Shown: positions 33,771-36,626 of the stretch, in pieces | Position numbering within the stretch: the stretch's first letter is position 1 | Layout of the letters: each line of letters begins with the position of its first letter | Assembly: GCA_013360215.1 (NCBI GenBank) | Contig: JABWCP010000013.1 | Location: 47,396 to 111,395 of the forward strand | Length of the DNA stretch: 64,000 nucleotides | Direction: 5' to 3' | DNA from: a bacterium | GTDB lineage: Bacteria; CLD3; SB21 | Notes under the pieces: model-generated | Database searches by the model: none | Told to the model about the DNA's origin: nothing | Seen by the model: only the letters and a program-made list of their open reading frames with translations | Made by a program: the position numbers and the translations under genes

Positions 33771-36626
<2,856 letters not shown>

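Follow-up and report, generated by a model that had tools for sequence, protein, structure and literature searches.

A 14-nt tandem duplication in the peptidyl transferase centre of a bacterial 23S rRNA gene is very probably an assembly artefact

Conserved rRNA gives rise to k-mers that are common to several organisms and confound assembly graphs (PMC7593591). Furthermore, a local class of assembly error has been described in which an unmerged overlap between scaffold ends leaves duplicate sequence (Chen et al. 2020, PMC7111523). The rRNA operon analysed here, situated in a stretch of 64,000 nt (hereafter the window), resembles this error in carrying a short exact direct duplicate where fragments tend to end. 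In the published case Ns lie between the duplicates, whereas the window has none, which implies that the gap was closed or that the pieces were abutted.

The operon is arranged in the order 16S - tRNA-Ile - tRNA-Ala - 23S - 5S, as in G003, which together with G002 represents the same family. Since it is embedded in a 111-kb contig free of Ns and shares this gene order with its relative, most of the operon appears to be correctly assembled, which counts against an artefact. The draft genome comprises 3.72 Mb in 56 contigs with an estimated completeness of 100%. Across all of its contigs, one 23S match and one instance of the pattern of the peptidyl transferase centre (PTC) were found. Only a single rRNA operon is visible, with no second 23S piece. 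The 23S rRNA gene matches the Rfam model RF02541 (bacterial 23S rRNA) over its full length, but with a score 242 bits below that of G003 (2807 bits), two conserved segments being absent and one doubled (Table 1).

Table 1. Position of the rRNA genes and of the four anomalies in the window
Feature	Position	Strand	Remarks
16S rRNA gene	31763..33259	+	Holds the third gap (19 nt)
Junction, 19 nt of 16S missing (E. coli 385-403)	32146..32147	+	Compared with both family relatives and E. coli
23S rRNA gene	33763..36636	+	RF02541, 2565 bits; holds the duplication and two gaps; sole 23S match in the draft genome
Junction, 32 nt of 23S missing (E. coli 779-810)	34592..34593	+	Compared with both family relatives, G002 and G003
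Junction, 44 nt of 23S missing (E. coli 1981-2024)	35746..35747	+	Compared with both family relatives, G002 and G003
14-nt tandem duplication, 2 x GTGAACTGGGTTCA	36296..36323	+	PTC; unit corresponds to E. coli 23S 2574-2587

Direct reading of the window bears out the initial annotation of a doubled 14-nt unit. GGTAC is followed by two perfect copies of GTGAACTGGGTTCA (36296-36309 and 36310-36323) and then by GAACGTCGTGAGACAG. When aligned to E. coli K-12 rrlB, the gene has its additional bases after position 2573, in agreement with the proposed equivalence of the unit to positions 2574-2587, and 14 inserted bases are likewise found at this site in the comparison with the Rfam model. No other perfect tandem repeat with a unit of 10-80 nt occurs anywhere in the 111,395-bp contig. 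The unit had also been said to form a small hairpin by itself. It does fold (-1.9 kcal/mol), but 42 out of 200 shuffled sequences fold equally well, so that the hairpin is unremarkable. For the doubled unit a strong fold is obtained (-12.9 kcal/mol), as is the case for every near-palindrome repeated in tandem.

In both G002 and G003 the site is present in a single copy with flanks identical to those of the window, and no relative carries the duplication. The phylum of the organism is represented by nine genomes in the examined set. Of 290 genomes surveyed, 84 match the site-spanning pattern exactly, and the 49-nt form is restricted to the genome of the window. Among the matches listed, all remaining ones (83 other genomes) are 35 nt long and contain one copy. 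A natural PTC insertion that is kept in relatives or present elsewhere at this site was found in 0 of these 83 genomes. An exact search for the duplication across the genome contig collection, a search in which the window's own record is possibly not included, returned no match, and no relevant report of natural insertions in the vicinity of helix 90 emerged from a search of the literature. Contigs were additionally scanned with GGTACN{15,45}GAACGTCGTGAGACAG, nearly all matches being produced by another GGTAC located 25 nt upstream. Among the matches listed, three true insertions occur, each of 1 nt. They belong to L010, L089, and L108, which are records of Demequina litorisediminis, Providencia stuartii, and Thaumasiovibrio occultus; two of the three consist of an additional T within a T run, and all three look like sequencing errors.

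Both family relatives contain further rRNA sequences. In case of G002, two differing sequences, L148 (contig C62) and L149 (contig C9), are approximately 86% identical where they overlap and share 89% and 95% identity, respectively, with G003; one of them may be a binning error. In case of G003, a second 16S and a second 23S rRNA gene on a 5.4-kb contig (L006 and L136, G003:C70) are 76% and 71% identical to those of the window and probably represent contamination.

The duplication is accompanied by three clean gaps in the same operon, 19 nt in the 16S and 32 and 44 nt in the 23S rRNA gene, which had escaped the initial annotation and became part of the explanation. The initial annotation had left three options, i.e., a defective rRNA copy, an insertion that is tolerated or removed from the RNA, and a wrong assembly. 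Due to the three further gaps, a lone tolerated insertion is very unlikely, and wrong assembly is strongly favoured. A PTC insertion that is tolerated or excised from the RNA would find an argument in the single 23S gene of the draft genome, which must work if its sequence is right. Three further conserved segments are absent from this very operon and comparable insertions were found in none of the relatives or surveyed genomes, so that this explanation is extremely improbable. From established knowledge of the ribosome, particles with incomplete 16S and 23S cores and an insertion in the catalytic centre could hardly support growth, and a cell relying on the sole visible operon as written could therefore hardly translate. 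That a living bacterium possesses, as its only rRNA operon, one with the 14-nt PTC duplication and three conserved segments missing, and that its ribosomes work nonetheless or its RNA is repaired, is equally hard to credit.

It might be speculated that the duplication alone is real and arose by recent slippage at the near-palindromic unit, with the gaps being assembly errors, and slippage could indeed be favoured by how strongly the doubled near-palindrome folds. Four anomalies of a similar kind would then have to be traced to two independent causes. In addition, from established knowledge of the PTC, cells with one operon carrying the duplication are probably not viable. We consider it highly improbable, if slightly less so than a tolerated or excised insertion.

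A gene that decays without selection is expected to accumulate surplus substitutions. At 1266 columns of the 23S rRNA with a conservation of 97% or more across 66 other 23S genes, 84 substitutions were counted in the window, compared to 92 in G003 and 93 in G002. The number of gaps at these columns is 45 in the window and two each in G002 and G003. The conserved core of a functional 23S rRNA, including the PTC, is hence not intact, given these gaps and the 14-nt insertion, and the remaining conserved positions are retained to the same degree as in the relatives. Due to the lack of surplus substitutions in a gene that is clean apart from its indels, the pattern fits a sound gene that was wrongly joined and not decay. 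This bears on the possibility of a genuine but defective operon copy whose intact counterpart was lost from the assembly or the bin. Copies of rRNA genes are often missing from draft genomes, and the two different rRNA sequences of G002 make a second operon conceivable in the family. The surplus of substitutions predicted at conserved sites is not seen, every defect is a clean indel within a conserved stretch, and the draft genome holds no second 23S piece. A defective copy is therefore improbable, although less so than the other alternatives.

We infer that the duplication is very probably an assembly artefact and not a biological feature. The four anomalies are absent from the relatives, are located in conserved stretches, and are accompanied by no further decay. 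The four longest 23S stretches that are identical between G002 and G003 cover E. coli positions 2475-2627, 722-839, 1866-1981, and 1986-2084, and all three 23S defects fall within them, with the 44-nt gap straddling the border of two. Similarly, the 19-nt gap is situated inside the second-longest stretch of the 16S rRNA that is identical between both relatives. Within such identical stretches, reads from related organisms are indistinguishable. When averaged over the columns of each of the four sites, conservation exceeds the median, though it is not extreme at every site (percentiles 0.57-0.98). Compared with 134 loci from outside the phylum, exact matches are long at the duplication and at one edge of the 44-nt gap, and short or absent at the other junctions. 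This part of the comparison is mixed, and the confusing reads would need to stem from closer relatives.

Several contig ends are found close to the anomalies. Contig C9 of G002 terminates at GGCTAGGGGTG and extends 2 nt beyond the left edge of the 32-nt gap, and contigs of G214, G223, and G078 as well as the Eggerthellales contig L063 start at approximately E. coli 2529-2565, just upstream of the duplication. These coincidences were noticed post hoc and serve as supporting evidence only.

The assembly would have been derived from short reads or from a metagenome, and is probably metagenomic. In such an assembly, 16S and 23S stretches common to many bacteria would branch the graph, and fragments of the operon would end inside these stretches and then be joined wrongly. 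At the PTC, two pieces that both bear GTGAACTGGGTTCAG may have been abutted end to end with their overlap left unmerged, yielding the duplication. At the three other conserved places the opposite error would have occurred, the joins skipping 19, 32, and 44 nt.

Small clean indels in the conserved rRNA of draft genomes can thus mimic striking biology and call for caution. Before an altered ribosome is claimed, screening the whole operon against relatives for additional indels offers a quick filter. An operon of this kind, if true, would overturn the current view of what is essential in the ribosomal core. Most likely, the real 23S rRNA of this organism is ordinary and contains one copy of the unit.
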